The notes under the pieces were generated by a model. The model was given only the letters and a program-made list of their open reading frames with translations, ran no database searches and was not told the DNA's origin. A DNA stretch of 19,381 nt from Desulfuromonadales bacterium (lineage in GTDB: Bacteria > Desulfobacterota > Desulfuromonadia > Desulfuromonadales > BM103). Position numbers and translations under genes: made by a program. The stretch lies in the NCBI GenBank assembly GCA_030640215.1, contig DAOWJU010000297.1:1-19381 (forward strand), written 5' to 3'. Shown one piece after another: positions 3,151 to 12,661 of the stretch. Numbering within the stretch: position 1 is the stretch's first letter; the number at the start of each line of letters is the position of its first letter.

Positions 3151-3936
3151 ATGAGTGACGAAAACAAAACAGCCAACGCTGAAAATGATCGCCAGGTTGT
3201 TACAGCTCTGGCGCGTGGGTTGAGCGTACTGCGCAGCTTTCGTCAGGGAGACCGTTTCCTCGGTAATCAGGAGATTGCCGAGCGTACCGGACTACCCAAA
3301 GCCACCGTTTCCCGTCTGACCCACACCCTGACAGTTTTAGGTTATTTACACCACTCCAAGCGCTTCAGCCAATACAGCCTTGGACCGGCGGTCCTCTCCT
3401 TAGGCTATTCCATGCTCGGCAACCTGGATATTCTTAAATCTGCGCGTCCGCTGATGCAGGAACTGGCTGATAGTGTGGAAGCCTCTGTGTCGTTGGCGGC
3501 TCGTGATGGTCTGCACATGGTCTATCTGGAAAACTGTGTTGCATATGCCAATATGATCACCTTGCGCATCGATGTGGGTGCACGTACCCGAATCGCTAAC
3601 ACCGCCATGGGCAGAGCCCTGCTTTGTGGCCTGCCTGAAGAAGACCGAGCTGACCTGATCGGCCAAATCCGTCAATCCATCCCAAAAGGGGAATGGCAAA
3701 AGATCAAGGCTGGGATCGACCAGGGAATGATTGACTACCGGGAAAAGGGCTTCTGCTTCTCGCTTGGTGACTGGCGCGAAAACGTCAACTCAATTGCTGT
3801 TCCCCTGGTTCAGGCCGATAACTCAGTGTTGGCGATCAACTGCGGTGGTCCAGCGTGGCAACTCAGTGCCGAAAAACTCGAAAATGAGATTGGACCACGT
3901 TTGGTTGAGATCAGCCGTAACCTCGGTAATCTTTAG
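3151..3936 (+). CDS. IclR-family transcriptional regulator of the glutaryl-CoA locus
   Basis: This 261-residue protein has an N-terminal winged helix-turn-helix (about residues 16-75), with NQEIAERTGLPKATVSRL forming the HTH. An IclR effector domain follows (about 90-260), including the family-typical GRALLCGLPEEDR and NSIAVPL segments. IclR proteins often control aromatic, dicarboxylate and acyl-CoA catabolism by binding a pathway metabolite. It is the first gene of the cluster, transcribed in the same direction, 60 bases before the dehydrogenase. It most likely controls the downstream genes; the effector is unknown, and glutarate or glutaryl-CoA is only a guess. No convincing operator was found. 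Upstream is the divergent MazE-like gene, so this is the left edge of the catabolic locus. Confidence 0.88.
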   Translation: MSDENKTANAENDRQVVTALARGLSVLRSFRQGDRFLGNQEIAERTGLPKATVSRLTHTLTVLGYLHHSKRFSQYSLGPAVLSLGYSMLGNLDILKSARPLMQELADSVEASVSLAARDGLHMVYLENCVAYANMITLRIDVGARTRIANTAMGRALLCGLPEEDRADLIGQIRQSIPKGEWQKIKAGIDQGMIDYREKGFCFSLGDWRENVNSIAVPLVQADNSVLAINCGGPAWQLSAEKLENEIGPRLVEISRNLGNL

Positions 3937-3996: not shown

Positions 3997-5154
3997 ATGC
4001 AGTTCGGACTCACCGATGAACAGCGGATGATGCAAGAAATGGCCAAGGATTTTGCCCATAAAGAAATCCTTCCCAACCTTAAGGATGATGAGGCGAATCA
4101 CAGGTATCGTCCCGAGCTGGTTAAGCAGATGGCCTCGCTAGGCTTCTTTGGCTGCGCTTTACCAGAAGAGTACGATGGCAATGGTTTCGGTTTTCTCGAA
4201 TCCGTTCTCCTCTCTGAACAGATCGCCAAAGTCAGCGGTTCCTGGCGGCTACCTTTTAATATGCAGAACATCGGTCCCGCTGTAACTGTCAACAAATTCG
4301 GCAGCAAGGAACAGAAGCAACGCTTCATACCTGACTGGGTCAGTGCTGAGTCTTGCGGCTTCTTCGCTATCACCGAGCCCAACTCTGGTTCTGATGTTGC
4401 CAGTATGGGTACCACAGCCACCGATTGCGGTGACCACTGGGAGCTTAATGGCCAGAAGATGTGGATTTCCAATGCCCATGTCGGTGATTGGGGCCTGCTT
4501 TATGCCTTTACTGACAAAAGTAAAAAATACAAAGGGATGACCTGTTTCATCGTCAACCTTAAGGACAACGAGGGAATCGTTACGGCTGCCATTGAGACCA
4601 AACTCGGGTTGCACTGTGCTCCCACCGGAGAGATTGCCTTCACTAAAGCGAAGATTCCTAAGGATTCCGTTCTTGGTGAAGTCGGTCAGGGCTTTCAGAT
4701 CTGCATGTGGCAGCTTAATAACACTAGAATCAGCTGTTCCGCCGGTGCTCTCGGTATTGCCGGAGGCGCCATCGATGCGGCCATTGAGTACGCCAATGAG
4801 CGTACCCAGTTCGGCAAGAAAATCGGAGCCTACCAGATGATCCAGGCCCAGATTGCCGATATGGTTGCCGAGCACGAAGCTGCCAAACTCCTTGTTTATC
4901 GGGCTGCCTGGCTCAAGGATCAGGGATTGCCCAATCAACAACAGACGTCCATTGCCAAACTCTTCGCCTCAGAGGCTGCGGTTCATGCTGCCAGTGACAC
5001 AATGAAGATTTTCGGTAGCTACGGTTTCTCCACAGAGTACCCGGCTGAGCGTTTTTTACGTGATGCACAGTCCTTACGGGTGGTTGAAGGAACCAGTAAT
5101 ATTCAGAAGACTATTATCGCTGGGATCGCTATGGGTGATGTTACTAACCGATAA
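3997..5154 (+). CDS. Glutaryl-CoA dehydrogenase, probably non-decarboxylating (glutaconyl-CoA forming)
   Basis: This is a 385-residue acyl-CoA dehydrogenase with family segments FFAITEPNSGSD (122-133), WISNAH (156-161), RTQFGKKI (269-276) and the catalytic-base region VVEGTSNIQ (362-370, Glu364). Arg84 in SGSWRLPFNMQ aligns with the conserved Arg that binds the distal carboxylate of glutaryl-CoA in human GCDH (Arg94). The residue before the catalytic Glu is Val363. Human and other decarboxylating enzymes have Tyr there, and a Tyr-to-Val exchange distinguishes the non-decarboxylating Desulfococcus multivorans enzyme. The expected product is therefore glutaconyl-CoA, with electrons passed to ETF. 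A strong AGGAGG (3986-3991) precedes the ATG. The genes immediately downstream encode a glutaconyl-CoA decarboxylase, which fits exactly. Substrate assignment rests on these residues and context; the enzyme family is certain. Confidence 0.86.
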   Translation: MQFGLTDEQRMMQEMAKDFAHKEILPNLKDDEANHRYRPELVKQMASLGFFGCALPEEYDGNGFGFLESVLLSEQIAKVSGSWRLPFNMQNIGPAVTVNKFGSKEQKQRFIPDWVSAESCGFFAITEPNSGSDVASMGTTATDCGDHWELNGQKMWISNAHVGDWGLLYAFTDKSKKYKGMTCFIVNLKDNEGIVTAAIETKLGLHCAPTGEIAFTKAKIPKDSVLGEVGQGFQICMWQLNNTRISCSAGALGIAGGAIDAAIEYANERTQFGKKIGAYQMIQAQIADMVAEHEAAKLLVYRAAWLKDQGLPNQQQTSIAKLFASEAAVHAASDTMKIFGSYGFSTEYPAERFLRDAQSLRVVEGTSNIQKTIIAGIAMGDVTNR

Positions 5155-5237: not shown

Positions 5238-5399
5238 ATGGGGACTGACTGGTCCAAAGTTATAGAAGTTTTTGGTAGCGGTATTATCGGTGTTTTTCTG
5301 GTCATGATACTTCTGCAATTTCTGACTCAGCTCAGCACCAGAGTGATTGATCTGATCGAAACCAGAAATAATGGCGAGGACGCAGAGCCTGATGCCTAA
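5238..5399 (+). CDS. gcdD: Small membrane subunit of glutaconyl-CoA decarboxylase (GcdD/OadG-like)
   Basis: This 53-residue gene is easily missed because of its size. It starts with ATG after AAAGGA (5225-5230) at good spacing. The protein has a short N-terminus (MGTDWSKVIEVFGSG), one transmembrane helix (about residues 14-31, IIGVFLVMILLQFL), and an acidic polar tail ending EDAEPDA. Sodium-pumping decarboxylases (oxaloacetate, methylmalonyl-CoA, glutaconyl-CoA) have a gamma/delta subunit with this plan, which anchors and assembles the carboxyltransferase on the membrane beta subunit. It sits between the dehydrogenase and gcdB, as expected for such a subunit. Sequence in this subunit class is poorly conserved, so the assignment depends on topology and position. 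Confidence 0.75.
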   Translation: MGTDWSKVIEVFGSGIIGVFLVMILLQFLTQLSTRVIDLIETRNNGEDAEPDA

Positions 5400-5412: not shown

Positions 5413-5449
5413 GTAGGGGCTAAGCAAGTTTTATCTGCTTAGCCCCTAC
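5413..5449. repeat. 14-bp perfect inverted repeat between gcdD and gcdB
   Basis: GTAGGGGCTAAGCA (5413-5426) is perfectly complementary to TGCTTAGCCCCTAC (5436-5449) with a 9-base loop. No T-tract follows, so it is not a standard terminator. It could attenuate, or protect the mRNA segment encoding the membrane subunit. Its GTAGGGGC/GCCCCTAC ends recur in the repeat block between gcdC and gcdA (GCGCCCCTAC at 6956-6965), suggesting one dispersed palindromic family. Confidence 0.8.
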
Positions 5450-5497: not shown

Positions 5498-6616
5498 ATG
5501 TTCGATATACTCAAAGATCTCATTTATTCAAGTGGACTGGTCAGTCTGACCGCTGGCAATATGGTCATGTGGCTGATCTCCTTCATCCTGCTCTATCTGG
5601 CTATCAAGAAGCGATATGAGCCGTTGCTGCTTCTGCCGATTGCTTTCGGCATCTTGATCGTTAATCTGCCGCTGACTTACCTCATGGAGCCCGAACATGG
5701 CCTGATCTGGTTTTTTTATCACTACGGCATCGAACTTGACATCATTCCACCAATAATTTTTCTCGGCTTGGGAGCGATGATTGATTTCGGCCCTCTGATC
5801 GCCAATCCCAAGACGCTGCTTCTGGGAGCAGGTGCTCAAGCTGGTCTATACGTCACATTCTTTGCCGCTGTCCTCTTCGGTTTCGACCTGCAAGAGGCTG
5901 CCTCTATTGCTATCATTGGCGGAGCCGACGGCCCGACCACCATTTATCTGACCTCCAAGCTTGCACCGCACCTACTTGGCGCCACAGCGGTTTCTGCCTA
6001 CGCTTACATGGCACTGGTCCCCATTATTCAGCCACCAGTGATGAAGCTGCTGACGACCAATCATGAACGCAAAATCGTCATGAAAAAACTGCGTCCTGTC
6101 AGCAAACTGCAAAGGGTCTGCTTTCCGATTATCACTGCCATGACCATCATGCTGATTGTCCCCTCGGCAGCACCGTTGATCTCCATGTTGATGCTCGGCA
6201 ATCTCTTTAAAGAATCAGGTGTTGTTGAACGCCTGACCAACGCTTCTTCCAACGAGTTGATGAACATTGTGACCATTTTTCTTGGTCTTTCGGTCGGTGC
6301 TACCATGACCGCTGGCACCTTTCTCAATCCCAAGGTCCTGTTCATCTTCTTCCTCGGTCTCTTTGCCTTCGTTATCAGTACCGCTGCCGGGTTGCTCATG
6401 GCCAAGTTTATGAATCTGTTCCTCAAGGATAAAATCAACCCGTTGATAGGTGCCGCTGGGGTCTCAGCTGTGCCAATGGCCGCACGCTGTGTTCACAAAG
6501 TTGGCTCAGAAGCGAATCGACGCAACTATCTGCTGATGTATGCCATGGGCCCAAATGTGGCCGGGGTTATAGGTACTGTCGTGGCCGCGGCCATCCTGCT
6601 AAAAAATCTTGGATAA
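5498..6616 (+). CDS. gcdB: Glutaconyl-CoA decarboxylase beta subunit (Na+-translocating, OadB family)
   Basis: This 372-residue polytopic membrane protein, close to the ~375 residues of GcdB, couples removal of CO2 from carboxybiotin to Na+ export. Residues shown to matter in Klebsiella OadB are all present at a constant offset: Asp144 in GGADGPT (141-147; D203 there), Tyr170 (Y229), and Asn314, Gly318, Ser323 and Arg330 in NPLIGAAGVSAVPMAAR (N373, G377, S382, R389). Many hydrophobic segments span the whole chain. It starts at an ATG after TGAGGAA and is preceded by a strong hairpin (5413-5449). The specific substrate is not encoded in this subunit; it follows from the neighbouring GcdA. Full length, with no defects. 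Confidence 0.93.
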   Translation: MFDILKDLIYSSGLVSLTAGNMVMWLISFILLYLAIKKRYEPLLLLPIAFGILIVNLPLTYLMEPEHGLIWFFYHYGIELDIIPPIIFLGLGAMIDFGPLIANPKTLLLGAGAQAGLYVTFFAAVLFGFDLQEAASIAIIGGADGPTTIYLTSKLAPHLLGATAVSAYAYMALVPIIQPPVMKLLTTNHERKIVMKKLRPVSKLQRVCFPIITAMTIMLIVPSAAPLISMLMLGNLFKESGVVERLTNASSNELMNIVTIFLGLSVGATMTAGTFLNPKVLFIFFLGLFAFVISTAAGLLMAKFMNLFLKDKINPLIGAAGVSAVPMAARCVHKVGSEANRRNYLLMYAMGPNVAGVIGTVVAAAILLKNLG

Positions 6617-6667: not shown

Positions 6668-6880
6668 ATGTCTGAACTGACTGCACCGATTGCCGGAAAT
6701 GTCTGGAAAATTCTTGTTGCTGTAGGCGACAAAGTCGAGATGGATGATGAAGTCATCATTCTCGAAGCTCTGAAGATGGAAACTCCCATCTACTGTGAAG
6801 AGAGTGGCACCATTGCCGAGATCAAAATTAAGGAAGGCGATGCGGTCAACGAAGGCGATGTCTTGGTCATCTTCGGCTGA
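6668..6880 (+). CDS. gcdC: Biotin carrier subunit of glutaconyl-CoA decarboxylase, minimal form
   Basis: At 70 residues this is essentially a bare biotinyl (lipoyl-fold) domain. The biotin-accepting Lys36 lies in EALKMET, a Leu-for-Met variant of the usual EAMKM. The Ala/Pro-rich linker and N-terminal extension of the classical Acidaminococcus GcdC (about 145 residues) are absent: the chain begins MSELTAPIAG, directly at the first beta-strand. The carrier would shuttle CO2 from the carboxyltransferase GcdA to the membrane pump GcdB and must be biotinylated by a BirA-type ligase encoded elsewhere. A good AGAGGAGAG precedes the ATG. It lies between gcdB and gcdA. How a linkerless carrier reaches both sites is an open question; it may be a free small protein. 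Confidence 0.9.
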   Translation: MSELTAPIAGNVWKILVAVGDKVEMDDEVIILEALKMETPIYCEESGTIAEIKIKEGDAVNEGDVLVIFG

Positions 6881-6890
6881 TTTCAGAACG

Positions 6891-6990
6891 CCCTACAAAT
6901 GATTGAGGGCGTGGCAAGCAGCGGCCATATAAATGATCGAGGGCGCGGCAAGCAGCGCCCCTACAATGATGGTGCACAAGCGGCGCCCAG
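6891..6990. repeat. Three degenerate ~33-bp tandem repeats between gcdC and gcdA
   Basis: The core CTACAAATGAT..GAGGGCG.GGCAAGCAGCG starts near 6894, recurs near 6928 and again, more diverged, near 6961; the AATGAT steps are 34 and 33 bases. The second unit contains GGGCGC (6941-6946) and GCGCCC (6955-6960), an inverted pair that would fold as a hairpin. The block sits in the 151-base gap before gcdA and ends about 40 bases before its start codon. It resembles a mobile REP-like palindromic element. Confidence 0.7.
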
Positions 6991-7031: not shown

Positions 7032-8789
7032 ATGTCACGCAAACAAACACCACTGCGCCCATACTTCGAGAAAATGGCGGAAATCGGCAAGGAGCTCAGG
7101 GAAGGAGAGGTGCGTCGCTCTCAAGCCAACGTTGATCTGGTTCGTGAGCAAGAAGCGATCATCAGCCAGGAAGTTGAAAGAGTGAGAAACGCAGGCATCC
7201 CTGCTGAGAAAATTCACCAGCGCGGCGGTATGACTATCTACGATCGCCTGGATTACCTGGTCGATGAGGGCACATGGAACCCACTACACACCCTCTATAA
7301 CCCGGCTGACAACGAAGAGGGTTGTACCGGCGTTGTTAATGGTCTTGGTAAGATTGAAGGCAAATGGGCGGTCATTATTGGCTTTGACAATAAAGTCATG
7401 GCTGGCGCCTGGATCGCCGGGCAGGCCGAGAATATCCTCATGGTCACCGATCTGGCCAAGCGGCTCAATATACCCCTAGTCTGGATGACTAACTGCAGTG
7501 GCGTCAAGCTCATGGAACAGGAAACTGTCTACGCAGGTCGTCGCTCCAGCGGTGCGCCTTTCTATCGTCACGCCGATCTCAACCATCTGGGGATTCCAAT
7601 TTTAAATGGCATCTACGGTACCAACCCGGCTGGTGGCGGTTATCAGGGGATCAGCCCCACCATTCTCTTGGCTCACGACGGCGCGAACATCGCTGTTGGC
7701 GGGGCAGGCATTGTTGGCGGTATGAATCCCAAAGGGTATATCGATGAAGAGGCTGCCCAGGCATTGATTGAAGGCACCAAGAACTTCAAAGGCAAGGCTC
7801 CTGGACGAGTGGAAACTCACTTCGATCAGACCGCTTATTTTCGTGAAGCGCATGATACCGAGCAGGGCGTCCTCGATGGTATCAAGGACTATATGCGCAT
7901 GATGCCCGCTTACGATCCGACCATGTTCCGGGTGGCAGAACCCGCTGAGCCTAGGCTAAATGTCGAGGATCTCAACCTGATTCTCCCCGCGAACCAGAAA
8001 CGCCCCTACGACGCCATTCAGATCCTGGCTCGTCTCACAGATAACAGCGAGTTCATGGAATACCGGCCCGACTACGGTCGCGAGGTGTTTACCGGTATCG
8101 CCAAGATCGACGGTTTCCCGGTCGCCTTTATTGGCAATCAGCAGGGCGTTTTTCCCGGCTACCCAGAATACGCCAAAGGAGAGTATCCAGGTGTCGGTGG
8201 CAAGCACTACCGCGAAGGTCTCATCAAACAAGGGGAGTTTGTTACCCTCTGCGGTCGCGATAACCTGCCGATTATTTGGTTGCAGGATACCACCGGTATC
8301 GATGTCGGCGATCTCGCCGAAGAAGCGGAACTGCTTGCCCTGGGCCAATCCCTGGTCTATTCCATCGAACAGACCGAACTCTCCATGATGTGCGTTGTCC
8401 TGCGCAAAGGAACCGCCGCTGCCCACTACATTATGTGCGGGCCACAGGCCAACAATAACAATGCTTTTACACTCGGCACTCCGTTGACAGAGATCTACGT
8501 TATGCATGGTGAAACAGCTGCCGCTGCCTCCTATGCCCGACGCCTGGTCAAGGAAGACGATGCTGGCAACGACCTCTCTCCGATTCTGGACAAAATGAAT
8601 CAGATGATCCAGGACTACCAGGATAAGTCGCGCCCGGTTTACAGCGCCGAGAAAGGTTTTGTTGATGAGATCGTTTCGTTGACCGATCTGCGTAAATATA
8701 TCCAGGCTTTCACCGGTGCCAACTACCAGAACCCCAAGTCGATTACCCCGGTGCACCAGATGCTTCTGCCGCGCATCATCAAAGGATAA
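7032..8789 (+). CDS. gcdA: Glutaconyl-CoA decarboxylase alpha subunit (carboxyltransferase)
   Basis: This 585-residue cytoplasmic carboxyltransferase (Acidaminococcus GcdA is 587) transfers the C4 carboxylate of glutaconyl-CoA to biotin, releasing crotonyl-CoA. It has two crotonase-fold halves. The N-half contains GIYGTNPAGGGYQ (193-205) and GGAGIVGGMNPKG (223-235); the C-half contains WLQDTTGIDVG (416-426) and LRKGTAAAHYIM (457-468). The C-terminal FTGANYQNP and HQMLLPR segments match GcdA closely rather than propionyl- or methylmalonyl-CoA carboxyltransferases. I place the start at 7032 (MSRKQTPLRPYF, preceded by AAGGGA), because the open frame upstream from 6933 only translates repeat sequence. 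This gene fixes the substrate of the whole complex and supports glutaconyl-CoA as the dehydrogenase product. Confidence 0.95.
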   Translation: MSRKQTPLRPYFEKMAEIGKELREGEVRRSQANVDLVREQEAIISQEVERVRNAGIPAEKIHQRGGMTIYDRLDYLVDEGTWNPLHTLYNPADNEEGCTGVVNGLGKIEGKWAVIIGFDNKVMAGAWIAGQAENILMVTDLAKRLNIPLVWMTNCSGVKLMEQETVYAGRRSSGAPFYRHADLNHLGIPILNGIYGTNPAGGGYQGISPTILLAHDGANIAVGGAGIVGGMNPKGYIDEEAAQALIEGTKNFKGKAPGRVETHFDQTAYFREAHDTEQGVLDGIKDYMRMMPAYDPTMFRVAEPAEPRLNVEDLNLILPANQKRPYDAIQILARLTDNSEFMEYRPDYGREVFTGIAKIDGFPVAFIGNQQGVFPGYPEYAKGEYPGVGGKHYREGLIKQGEFVTLCGRDNLPIIWLQDTTGIDVGDLAEEAELLALGQSLVYSIEQTELSMMCVVLRKGTAAAHYIMCGPQANNNNAFTLGTPLTEIYVMHGETAAAASYARRLVKEDDAGNDLSPILDKMNQMIQDYQDKSRPVYSAEKGFVDEIVSLTDLRKYIQAFTGANYQNPKSITPVHQMLLPRIIKG

Positions 8790-8838: not shown

Positions 8839-10821
8839 ATGGAGCTAACCAGAGAAATATACTGGAACGTAGGCCATGGAGTAGGCACCTTACTGCCCAT
8901 GTACCTGCTGACCTTTGCTGCAATAGCTGTACTGGTCACTGCGTTCAAGAAACGGATCAAGATCTATAAACAAGGCCAGTCGGTCGATCGACTTGATCAA
9001 ATGCCGGTTCGAATTGCCAACCTGGTCAAGAATGTGTTGCTCCAGAGCAAGGTGACGTTGGTGAAGGGACCGGGACTGGCCCATGGCCTATTTTTCTGGG
9101 GCTTCTTCCTGTTATTTCTCGGTACCTGCCTGATCGTCGTCCAGGCTGATTTTACCGACCTGTTTTTCGGCGTCAAATTCCTTAAGGGGAATTTTTATCT
9201 ACTATTTTCAGTGGCTCTGGATCTGGCTGGTCTGGTCGCCGTTGTAATGCTTGGCGGACTCTTTGTGCGGCGTTACTTTGTATGTCCAGAAGGACTTGAG
9301 AGCAAAAAAGACGACGCCATCATGCATGGTCTGCTCTTTGCGATTCTGCTCAGCGGCTTTGTCATTGAAGGTGCGCGCATGGCGGTCACCGAGCTGGGGA
9401 CTTCATTAGCCTATTGGTCACCGGTCGGGTTGGTCTTTGCCAAGAGTATGGCTGGTCTGGGTGAAGAGAGTCTACGTTCTGTTCATAGTCTCATCTGGTG
9501 GTTCCACCTGTTGTTGGTGATGGCTTTTATCGTTTTGATTCCTTTTACCAAATTCCGACATATCTTTACGACCAGTCTCAATTATCTCTTTGAAGATCTC
9601 GGTCCGACCGGCAAATTGGTCAGCATTGATATGGAAGATGAAGATGCTGAAAGTTTTGGCGCTGCAGTTATTACGGATCTGACCTGGAAAGATATCTTTG
9701 ATACTGATGCCTGTACCCAGTGCAAACGCTGTCAGGATCGTTGCCCGGCGCATAATAGTGATAAGCCCCTTTCACCAATGAAGATTATTAACCAGATTGG
9801 CGAAGTGGCTTTCGAAAACTCTGAAAGTAACCTGATTGAAGCCTGCGACAAGGATGCAATCTGGTCCTGTACGACTTGTCTGGCCTGTCAGGAGATCTGC
9901 CCGGCGAGTATCGAGCATGTCAAAAAAATTGTCGATATGCGTCGTAACATGGTGCTGATGGAAGGCGAGTTCCCCGGCGAAGAAGTGATGGCTGCCATGG
10001 AGCAAACTGAAGTGAACGGCAACCCACTTGGTTTGGGTTACGCTTCACGAGGTGACTGGATCGAAGAGCTCGGTATCAAGCCGCTTTCGGAAGATCCTGA
10101 TGTGGATATCCTCTATTTTGTTGGCTGTTATGCTTCCTTTGACAAGCGTAATATTAAAATTGCCAAGAGCTTTGTTAAGCTTTGTCAGGCTGCTGGTATC
10201 AAAGTCGGTATTCTGGGCAAAGAAGAAAAATGTTGCGGCGAGCCGATGCGCAAGATGGGCAACGAATATCTCTATCAGTCCTTAGCTATTGAAAATGTCG
10301 AACTGATTAAAGACTATAATGTCAAGAAGGTGGTGACAACCTGTCCACACTGTTTTAATACACTGGCGAAAGATTATCGAGATCTCGATTTCGATGTAGA
10401 AGTAGAAAGTTATACGGTCTTCCTTGAAGATCTCTTAAAAACCGGCAAACTGAAAGTCAACGCCGAAGAGTTGCACTGCACTTACCACGATTCATGCTAT
10501 ATGGGCCGCCATAATGATATTTATGCTGCGCCACGCTCTCTTATCAAAGCGGCAGGCGGTCAGATTGCCGAAATGGACAAGAATCGATCCGAAGCTTTTT
10601 GCTGCAGTGCCGGAGGTGGGCGGATTATGGCTGAAGAGAAACTGGGTGACCGGATCAATGTCAAGCGGGTTGAAATGGCGGTCGAGACCGGAGCTCCGAC
10701 CATGATCTCCAATTGTCCATTCTGTCTGACTATGTTCGAAGATGGTATCAAGGGTGCTGACGTCGAGGACAAACTGAGCACAAAAGATATTGCTGAAGTT
10801 CTGGTAGAACGTCTGAACTAA
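8839..10821 (+). CDS. Membrane FeS/CCG oxidoreductase: EtfAB:menaquinone oxidoreductase (EMO type)
   Basis: This 660-residue protein should pass electrons from reduced ETF to menaquinone. The N-terminal half is a NarI/DsrM-like cytochrome b domain with about five membrane helices (near 16-36, 84-102, 119-143, 161-179 and 217-236) and candidate haem histidines His82, His163, His216 and His223. Two 4Fe-4S motifs follow, CTQCKRCQDRC (292-302) and CTTCLACQEIC (344-354). Then come two CCG domains: Cys430, CC465-466, C502/C505; and Cys547 or Cys553, CC588-589, C626/C629. This is the plan of the EMO enzyme described for Syntrophus and the Geobacter DUF224-type homologues. It lies between the decarboxylase genes and etfBA, linking them. 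ATG preceded by TGAGG. Family certain; the electron acceptor is inferred. Confidence 0.92.
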   Translation: MELTREIYWNVGHGVGTLLPMYLLTFAAIAVLVTAFKKRIKIYKQGQSVDRLDQMPVRIANLVKNVLLQSKVTLVKGPGLAHGLFFWGFFLLFLGTCLIVVQADFTDLFFGVKFLKGNFYLLFSVALDLAGLVAVVMLGGLFVRRYFVCPEGLESKKDDAIMHGLLFAILLSGFVIEGARMAVTELGTSLAYWSPVGLVFAKSMAGLGEESLRSVHSLIWWFHLLLVMAFIVLIPFTKFRHIFTTSLNYLFEDLGPTGKLVSIDMEDEDAESFGAAVITDLTWKDIFDTDACTQCKRCQDRCPAHNSDKPLSPMKIINQIGEVAFENSESNLIEACDKDAIWSCTTCLACQEICPASIEHVKKIVDMRRNMVLMEGEFPGEEVMAAMEQTEVNGNPLGLGYASRGDWIEELGIKPLSEDPDVDILYFVGCYASFDKRNIKIAKSFVKLCQAAGIKVGILGKEEKCCGEPMRKMGNEYLYQSLAIENVELIKDYNVKKVVTTCPHCFNTLAKDYRDLDFDVEVESYTVFLEDLLKTGKLKVNAEELHCTYHDSCYMGRHNDIYAAPRSLIKAAGGQIAEMDKNRSEAFCCSAGGGRIMAEEKLGDRINVKRVEMAVETGAPTMISNCPFCLTMFEDGIKGADVEDKLSTKDIAEVLVERLN

Positions 10822-10960: not shown

Positions 10961-11734
10961 ATGAAAATTCTCGTATGCATCAAGCAGGTTCCAGATATGG
11001 AGTCGAGGTTTAAGCTGAATAGCGAAAGTAACTGGTACGAAGGCACCGATCTCGCCTGGCGGATGAACGAATATGACGAATATGCTGTCGAGCAAGCGGT
11101 GCAACTTAAGGGTCAAGTTGGTGATGCAGATCTTACTGTCCTCAGTATCGGGCCGGACCGGGTCAAAGAAATGATGAAGAAAGCGCTGGCTATGGGCTGT
11201 GATCGTGGCGCGCATATCGCTGATGATGACTACTTCAAAAAAGATCCTTTTGAAATTGCTTCGGTGATTGCCGAATTTGCCAAAGATCAGGGCTTCGATT
11301 TGATCTTTACTGGCATGCAGTCTCAAGACCGTGGCTCCGGACAAGTTGGCGTGTTGGTGGCTGAAATGCTTGACTTACCAAGCATTACCACGATTGTTGA
11401 TTTTGCCTTTGACGGCGGCCAGATCACGGTTAAGCGTGAGCTGGAAGGTGGTATCAAGTCGGTCATTAAGGCAACTGCTCCTGCGTTGGTCACTTGTCAA
11501 CTTGGTCTTAATACGCCACGCTACCCGACCTTGCCGAACATCATGAAAGCGAAGCGGAAGGAACTTTTGTCGATCCCGATTTCTGATCTGCTCAAAGTTG
11601 AAGGTAAGCAGGAGACCGCAAAGATGTATTTCCCGGAGAAGAAGGGCGGCGGGCTGGTCCTTGAGGGAGATGTTGCCGATTTGACTGACCGGCTTATTAA
11701 GATCCTTAAAGACAAAACCGCCGTGTTGGCCTAG
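10961..11734 (+). CDS. etfB: Electron transfer flavoprotein beta subunit
   Basis: This 257-residue EtfB starts MKILVCIKQVPDMESRF and contains the family segments MNEYDEYAVEQAVQLK, LIFTGMQSQDRGSGQVG (nucleotide-site region) and the signature region VKRELEGGIKSV, TAPALVTCQ, NTPRYPTLPNIMKAK. It pairs with EtfA to carry electrons from the acyl-CoA dehydrogenase to the membrane oxidoreductase. GTGGAGG lies at good spacing before the ATG. The stop codon is 9 bases before etfA. I cannot tell from motifs alone whether this ETF could bifurcate; with a dedicated menaquinone oxidoreductase next door and no ferredoxin or NADH partner nearby, simple non-bifurcating transfer is the likelier role. The terminator-like hairpin upstream suggests it may be expressed partly independently of the decarboxylase genes. 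Confidence 0.95.
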   Translation: MKILVCIKQVPDMESRFKLNSESNWYEGTDLAWRMNEYDEYAVEQAVQLKGQVGDADLTVLSIGPDRVKEMMKKALAMGCDRGAHIADDDYFKKDPFEIASVIAEFAKDQGFDLIFTGMQSQDRGSGQVGVLVAEMLDLPSITTIVDFAFDGGQITVKRELEGGIKSVIKATAPALVTCQLGLNTPRYPTLPNIMKAKRKELLSIPISDLLKVEGKQETAKMYFPEKKGGGLVLEGDVADLTDRLIKILKDKTAVLA

Positions 11735-11743
11735 GAGATCATA

Positions 11744-12661
11744 ATGAAAACACTACTTGTTGCAGAATATAGAGACGGTGAACTGCTCAACAGCAGCTAT
11801 GAGTTGGTTGCCTTTGCAGAACAACTTGGTGCCGAAAGCGCAATGTTCCTGGTTGGGTCTGACAGCGCACTTCCTACCTACAACGGCACACTTTATCTGG
11901 CTGATGTTGGCAAATATGGTGAATTCAATCCGGCTGTCCACAAGCAGTTGCTGCTTGATGCCATCGCTAAAGAACAGCCCGATATGGTGGTTTTTGCCCA
12001 TAGTTCATATGGCTGGGATCTGGCCCCACGGATATCTCTGGCGTTAAATGTCGCCCATGTTTCCGAAGTGATTGACATTGTCGACGGTGTCCCGGTTGTT
12101 CCCGCCTGTAATGCCAAACTGAGGCGTAACGTCAAGGCGAAGACCAATCAGATGGTCCTTACTCTTCAGGGTGGAGCTTTTGGACTTGAGGATGAGCCGA
12201 GTGGTAGTCCAACCGTGGTTTCAGTCGATACAGATACTGCAGCTCAAGTCGAATTCTGTGGCTATGAGGAAGCAGAGGCCGGTGGCGTCGATCTTTCCAA
12301 GGCCGAGGTGATTGTCAGTGCCGGTCGTGGTATTGGTAAACCGGAAAACTTGGCGATCATAGAAGCCTTGGCCAAGGCCCTTAAAGGTGAGTACGGCGCT
12401 AGCCGTCCGGTGGTTGATTCTGATTGGGCCGATCACAGCCGCCAGGTCGGTACCACAGGCCAGACTGTCTCTCCCAAATTATACGTTGCTTGTGGCATCT
12501 CCGGGGCGATCCAACATTTGGCCGGCATGAAGAAGTCGGAATTCATTGTGGCGATCAATACAGATAAAGATGCTCCTATTGGTGAAGTTGCTGATGTTTT
12601 GATTGTGGCTGACCTCAAAGAGTTTGTTCCGGCGATGACCGAAAAAATAAACAATCTTTAG
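11744..12661 (+). CDS. etfA: Electron transfer flavoprotein alpha subunit
   Basis: This 305-residue EtfA has an N-terminal alpha/beta domain with the family segment [18 protein letters not shown] and a C-terminal FAD domain. The FAD domain contains [13 protein letters not shown], the flavin-contacting [20 protein letters not shown], and AIQHLAGM followed by [20 protein letters not shown]. It has normal length and no added ferredoxin domain, unlike some clostridial EtfA proteins. AGGAGAT overlapping the etfB stop codon is its Shine-Dalgarno sequence, so the two subunits are co-translated. It is the last gene of the catabolic locus; the next gene downstream is a toxin remnant on the opposite strand. 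Confidence 0.95.

Follow-up and report, generated by a model that had tools for sequence, protein, structure and literature searches.

A predicted non-decarboxylating glutaryl-CoA dehydrogenase beside glutaconyl-CoA decarboxylase genes in a Desulfuromonadales bacterium

RESULTS AND DISCUSSION

The gene at positions 3997 to 5154 of the window (the whole stretch of 19,381 nucleotides analyzed here, from a Desulfuromonadales bacterium) encodes, on the forward strand, an acyl-CoA dehydrogenase of 385 residues that is predicted to be a non-decarboxylating glutaryl-CoA dehydrogenase. The enzyme probably leaves the carboxyl group of its substrate in place so that the neighboring membrane pump can draw energy from the later decarboxylation. 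We consider it very probable, as the best explanation of the locus, that glutaryl-CoA is converted to glutaconyl-CoA without decarboxylation and that the Gcd complex then decarboxylates this product and exports Na+. The initial annotation of this gene had read it as glutaconyl-CoA forming; its observation and main inference are supported by sequence, fold, tree, and gene context. Systems of this kind are already known: the accessible text of one paper describes the pairing of a non-decarboxylating glutaryl-CoA dehydrogenase with a Na+-pumping decarboxylase as established in strict anaerobes (PMC5852087), and that of another attributes the dehydrogenase step to strict anaerobes (PMC13416013). 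The window gene is placed in a clade of its own, and the results support energy conservation via glutaconyl-CoA decarboxylation in a lineage of the Desulfuromonadales type, with product and ion pumping as predicted steps.

Fold and phylogeny of the dehydrogenase

The N-terminal, middle, and C-terminal Pfam acyl-CoA dehydrogenase domains are all present in the product. Its top match among solved structures is 3mpi/3mpj (345.7 bits; 46% identity to 3mpi), which we take to be the Desulfococcus multivorans enzyme GDH(Des), followed by the acyl-CoA dehydrogenase 4l1f at 292.8 bits. A predicted structure (mean pLDDT 83.9, pTM 0.87) likewise retrieved 3mpj/3mpi chains as its top five Foldseek matches, with short-chain acyl-CoA dehydrogenases close behind. 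The best of 23 NCBIfam families was NF045552 (GlutCoADH_Des), at 439 bits, which is under the cutoff of 470.

In both of two trees (SH-aLRT 99 in one), the enzyme and its relatives form their own clade next to GDH(Des), away from dehydrogenases with Tyr-Glu and from decarboxylating glutaryl-CoA dehydrogenases (GCDHs); the trees are quick ones made without bootstrap, and the branching order among the Arg84 clades is not settled by them. GDH(Des), the comparison enzyme of the initial annotation, is the nearest solved relative, but the window enzyme belongs to a different clade and scores below the family cutoff. Named relatives show that the window clade reaches down to 66% identity and spans several phyla, and the database name of many close relatives is already glutaryl-CoA dehydrogenase (non-decarboxylating). 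Grouping with butyryl- or isovaleryl-CoA dehydrogenases, tree rows that we take to be of these types from their motifs, was not seen. A dehydrogenase of that type is ruled out by tree, motif, and sequence match, while the fold search by itself draws this line less clearly.

Active-site residues

A Tyr-to-Val exchange at the residue before the catalytic Glu, described in a 2010 paper, reportedly separates non-decarboxylating from decarboxylating glutaryl-CoA dehydrogenases. The earlier placement of Val363 before catalytic Glu364 was confirmed in the 385-residue reading frame: this pair (codons at 5083 to 5088, forward strand; Glu364 is the predicted catalytic base) aligns with V366-E367 of GDH(Des) and with Tyr-Glu374 of the Burkholderia GCDH chain 3d6b. 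The assignment of Arg84 as the substrate-carboxylate arginine of GCDHs also held in alignment, with R87 of GDH(Des) and R97 of 3d6b (a predicted contact) at the equivalent position; from alignment and from its invariance in the clade, Arg84 (4246 to 4248, forward strand) is the predicted holder of the substrate carboxylate. Position 77 (4225 to 4227, forward strand) is Ala in both the window enzyme and GDH(Des). The two enzymes thus share Ala/Arg/Val/Glu at 77/84/363/364, and decarboxylating GCDHs have Glu/Arg/Tyr at 77/84/363. The motif TYEGTHD is also present in human GCDH, whose residues we take to be numbered Arg94/Tyr369/Glu370, and the decarboxylating GCDHs of the class have E77/R84/S85/Tyr-Glu in 6 of 6 loci inspected (from 11 genomes).

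Arg84 never varies in the window clade: all 121 database proteins, all 79 rows from named genomes, and all 29 rows from the class have it. Val363 is equally constant (121 of 121, 78 of 78 covering named rows, and 29 of 29). These tallies are not independent, since the rows share ancestry and some of them recur between sets. Both the 121-protein and the 29-row sets include the window's own sequence. Two of the 80 named loci are affected by gaps (L083, with its gene in two pieces, was left out, and L050 is cut by a contig end before position 363), and one of the 30 class rows, the partial match L118, was left out. The adjacent position 362 varies among V, T, I, and A, and Ala77 is replaced by Gly in 2 of the 121 database proteins. 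The split gene of L083 may perhaps reflect a frameshift or a sequencing error.

The combination of Arg84 and Val363 exceeds chance expectation among the acyl-CoA dehydrogenases of the class. Of 60 other acyl-CoA dehydrogenase rows from the class, 59 cover position 363 and none of these has Val there; 59 cover position 84 and three of these have Arg (L151, L157, and L159). None of the three has Val-Glu, and one is a Tyr-Glu enzyme of the decarboxylating GCDH type. Beyond the class sample, some wider relatives do show Val-Glu. Seven related dehydrogenases (L216, L219, L222, L224, L228, L229, and L231) have Arg84 with Leu-Glu at the catalytic Glu.

Gene neighborhood and proposed pathway

Following the dehydrogenase gene on the same strand, with gaps of 9 to 151 bp, are genes for a 53-residue protein, GcdB, a biotin carrier, GcdA, an Fe-S oxidoreductase, EtfB, and EtfA, all on the forward strand. 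The 53-residue protein (5238 to 5399) sits at the place of the pump delta/gamma subunit and is tentatively called GcdD-like. Its match to Pfam OAD_gamma is just 15.3 bits (E 0.034), under the cutoff of 27; 16 of the 80 named loci have a relative at the equivalent place (57 to 85% identity), and a tblastn search of the GDH(Des)-type locus gave no match, a weak test with so short a query. The GcdB-like protein (5498 to 6616), the membrane subunit of a Na+-translocating carboxybiotin decarboxylase, matches TIGR01109 at 499 bits (cutoff 190.6) and OAD_beta at 517.5 bits and has 6iva as a solved relative. The GcdC-like biotin carrier of 70 residues (6668 to 6880) has a biotinylation-type motif, EALKMET, and a Biotin_lipoyl match of 65.1 bits, above cutoff, with solved biotin carriers among its structure matches.

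GcdA, the carboxyltransferase of glutaconyl-CoA decarboxylase, spans 7032 to 8789, its start being taken at MSRKQ (7032) within a longer reading frame that starts at 6933. It scores 718 bits against glutaconyl-CoA decarboxylase 3gf3, 688 against 1pix, and 131 against the next kind, an acyl-CoA carboxylase beta subunit; judged by these matches, the predicted protein is clearly of the glutaconyl-CoA type. The similarity to the alpha subunits 1pix and 3gf3 extends over nearly the whole length. Known decarboxylases of the 1pix/3gf3 type presumably serve glutamate fermentation; the window gcdA, unlike those systems, sits with a dehydrogenase and ETF. Of the remaining genes, the membrane Fe-S oxidoreductase (8839 to 10821; NarI-like, with 4Fe-4S and CCG domains in Pfam) likely passes ETF electrons to quinone, and EtfB (10961 to 11734; Pfam ETF) and EtfA (11744 to 12661; ETF_alpha and ETF) complete the run.

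Upstream by 60 bp is a gene for an IclR-family regulator (3151 to 3936, forward strand; Pfam IclR_C and HTH_IclR), found at the equivalent place in 12 of the 80 named relatives at 80 to 88% identity. Farther upstream, at 2040 to 2600, is a small gene pair whose products resemble a HigB-like toxin (under the Pfam cutoff) and an HTH protein (above cutoff). A perfect 14-nucleotide inverted repeat with a 9-nucleotide loop lies at 5413 to 5449, between the gcdD-like gene and gcdB, and two tandem 34-nucleotide copies, 88% alike, lie at 6890 to 6957, between gcdC and gcdA.

The residues, genes, and gene order read from the window would fit together in the following scheme, in which product, electron path, residue roles, and ion pumping are predicted. 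An FAD-dependent dehydrogenase would oxidize glutaryl-CoA to glutaconyl-CoA and release it undecarboxylated, with Glu364 abstracting the alpha proton, hydride passing to FAD, and Arg84 holding the distal carboxylate. Val363, which is Tyr in decarboxylating enzymes, and Ala77, which is Glu there, would remove groups that promote loss of CO2. Electrons would pass from FAD to EtfBA, to the membrane Fe-S protein, and to quinone. GcdA would decarboxylate glutaconyl-CoA, transferring the carboxyl group to biotin on GcdC, and GcdB would use this step to drive Na+ export.

GDH(Des) is similar in its fold as well as in its neighboring gcdB-gcdC-gcdA. One genome (G355) has two genes, L249 and L250, identical to GDH(Des) over 380 compared residues; only L250 has gcdB-gcdC-gcdA matches alongside, and the order there is dehydrogenase-gcdB-gcdC-gcdA, as in the window. 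The Geobacter bemidjiensis protein Gbem_1452, with 44% identity to its D. multivorans counterpart, is also a predicted non-decarboxylating glutaryl-CoA dehydrogenase that adjoins gcdA; according to the accessible part of the report, other decarboxylase subunits were looked for at that locus and not found (PMC2996986), whereas the window locus has them.

Occurrence among relatives

The dehydrogenase (E 1e-138 or better) is found in 30 of 195 genomes of the class, GcdA is found in 30, and both are found in 29, counts that are not independent, because the genomes are related. The exceptions are G180, with only a dehydrogenase fragment, and G186, where gcdB and gcdA lie at a contig start. In three further genomes the match to the dehydrogenase is weaker, at about 1e-101 to 1e-106, and these genomes contain other dehydrogenases. 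The benzoyl-CoA pathway marker BamA (TIGR03200 at E 1e-60 or better, with G148 counted from pieces below cutoff) occurs in 32 of the 195 genomes, 29 of which also have the dehydrogenase; the other three are G006 and G172, which have a decarboxylating GCDH, and the contig-start case G186. Conversely, BamA is present in 29 of the 30 dehydrogenase carriers, the sole exception being the window's own genome, which is 83% complete and in which neither BamA nor Had was found at its cutoff. In relatives the dehydrogenase travels with the benzoyl-CoA pathway; no source of glutaryl-CoA turned up in the window's incomplete genome. Among the near-complete relatives sampled from the window's genus, G065 and G067 have enzyme, GcdA, and BamA, and G041, G093, and G143 have none of them.

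This distribution bears on whether the substrate is another dicarboxylyl-CoA, with the small Val363 serving only to accommodate a substrate that is alpha-substituted or has a ring, a reading that we consider very unlikely. According to section 4.3 of a paper whose text is accessible in part (PMC11659651), enzymes for alpha-substituted or otherwise bulky substrates carry a smaller residue (Phe, Leu, Val, or Gly) ahead of the Glu, which the paper reads as giving alpha-substituted substrates space. Close subfamilies combine Leu-Glu or Gly-Glu with Arg84. The same source describes ThnO, a 2-carboxycyclohexylacetyl-CoA dehydrogenase, which has a dicarboxylyl-CoA substrate, as predicted for the window enzyme, and is 45% identical to GDH(Des), but which, unlike the window enzyme, has Gly before the catalytic Glu (PMC11659651). 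The association of the dehydrogenase in the class with GcdA (29 of 30) and with BamA (29 of 30), and GDH(Des) as the nearest solved relative, argue instead for glutaryl-CoA.

The dehydrogenase does not imply the pump, whose gene is often missing in one part of the class; this is a new element. GcdB at 88% identity or more is present in 14 of 14 carriers of the window's order, and no GcdB-like gene was found at E 1e-20 in 15 of the 16 class carriers outside that order; 14 of those 15 have GcdA. These 16 are probably Geobacterales, judging from named relatives. The sixteenth, G148, has a 51% relative of GcdB elsewhere in its genome, and G186, from this same group outside the order, has GcdB at 84% beside GcdA, with the dehydrogenase not found. 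The absences agree with and extend the accessible part of the G. bemidjiensis report, in which the other decarboxylase subunits are given as absent (PMC2996986). Because enzyme, GcdA, and BamA co-occur in the class while nearly all sampled carriers of the sister lineages lack the pump gene, an explanation is needed for why a non-decarboxylating enzyme is kept where there is no pump. In one Geomonas locus, gcdA is followed by a gene whose product is oxaloacetate-decarboxylase-alpha-like and has two biotin domains.

These same absences, with the G. bemidjiensis report, favor a second reading, namely that glutaconyl-CoA is formed and its decarboxylation is not coupled to ions in the window organism. 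For this organism we regard it as very unlikely: the pump genes of the window have open reading frames and stand between those for the dehydrogenase and GcdA, and close GcdB relatives accompany the enzyme in all 14 carriers of the order. The adjacent sodium pump proposed in the initial annotation is matched in gene content by gcdB, gcdC, and gcdA, with a weak assignment for the gcdD-like gene, and the pairing does not extend to most carriers outside the order. Highly improbable is a reading in which the enzyme itself decarboxylates and yields crotonyl-CoA, with the decarboxylase serving another source of glutaconyl-CoA, an identity that we rejected from residues and tree: Arg84 is common to decarboxylating enzymes, but their Tyr and Glu are replaced by the clade-invariant Val363 and by Ala77 (Gly in 2 of 121), and decarboxylating GCDHs form a distant separate clade and are found (E 1e-100 or better) in 11 of the 195 genomes, overlapping with the dehydrogenase in 1 of its 30 carriers, G110.

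Gene content around the dehydrogenase also varies among the 80 named relatives. Within 6 kb, GcdA is found at 500 bits or more in 55 of the 80, and in 49 of the 67 whose downstream sequence extends 4 kb or more; GcdB reaches at least 300 bits in 33 of the 80. GcdA, GcdB, and the biotin carrier are all missing within 6 kb in 9 of the 80, 4 of which have less than 4 kb downstream. Ten relatives with GcdA have only a distant beta subunit (9 are alphaproteobacterial by title, and one such subunit, examined further, proved to be an OAD_beta protein), and eight of the 80, including Desulfacinum, have GcdB with only a distant carboxyltransferase. In L071, L073, L075, L076, L079, L080, and L084, the dehydrogenase gene follows gcdB-gcdC and precedes the gene for a carboxyltransferase 22 to 23% identical to GcdA, which is perhaps a second kind of decarboxylase.

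A sister clade with Arg250

Beside the window clade in the trees is a clade that keeps Val-Glu and has Gly or Ala at position 84. There is also a single row with Thr84, which joins the window clade in one tree (support 81) and the clade lacking Arg84 in the other (62). Val-Glu, which the initial annotation had read as the signature of a non-decarboxylating enzyme, is shared with GDH(Des), and Val363 is invariant in the window clade, but the pair is not diagnostic alone. We rejected it as sufficient evidence of activity, since it occurs in the clade without Arg84, and the trait is not callable from this pair alone, which is also a new element.

In full-length Val-Glu rows, Arg84 is accompanied by Gly250 in 164 of 164 (the Gly250 codon of the window gene is at 4744 to 4746, forward strand), and rows without Arg84 have Arg250 in 15 of 15, some of the rows overlapping. 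Gly84, Arg250, and Val-Glu occur together in the best 120 of 7931 database relatives of one sister-clade member, and Gly84 and Arg250 occur in all of 11 wider sister-clade loci. A biotin-carrier gene adjoins the dehydrogenase in 10 of these 11 loci, and the eleventh locus has GcdA; a had gene is present in 8, and two others have an activase of the acyl-CoA dehydratase/benzoyl-CoA-reductase type, above cutoff only for the general activase model. Overall, the 11 loci contain either a biotin carrier together with genes of benzoyl-CoA-pathway type or gcdA. The idea that the sister clade acts on acyl-CoAs without a second carboxyl group is countered by this gene context and by Arg250. Of 15 genomes searched (14 from the sister clade plus that of the Thr84 row), 7 contain a GcdA homolog at 60% or more, 2 of these 7 only in pieces, a count that speaks against a simple reading of the sister clade.

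In a homology model of ThnO, the carboxyl group contacts N88 and R249, according to the accessible text (PMC11659651). Taking R243/F271/E363 of ThnO as R244/F272/E364, R249 corresponds to position 250 here and not to Arg84. Within the active site, the carboxylate arginine may have changed position. We lean somewhat toward the view, from residue comparison, that non-decarboxylating glutaryl-CoA dehydrogenases would use either of two alternative carboxylate arginines, Arg84 in the window and GDH(Des) clades or Arg250 in the sister clade. This alternation was not met in the open-licence literature searched and would be the newest element of the analysis. If it is real, blocking decarboxylation would not require the Arg84 geometry, and nature supplies a swap for testing the mechanism, a natural experiment on how decarboxylation is prevented. 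The rows with Val-Glu and Arg250 and without Arg84 are L225, L227, L232, L233, L235, L240-L248, L265, L266, and P0122-P0241; Arg250 is also found in L166, which does not have Val-Glu.
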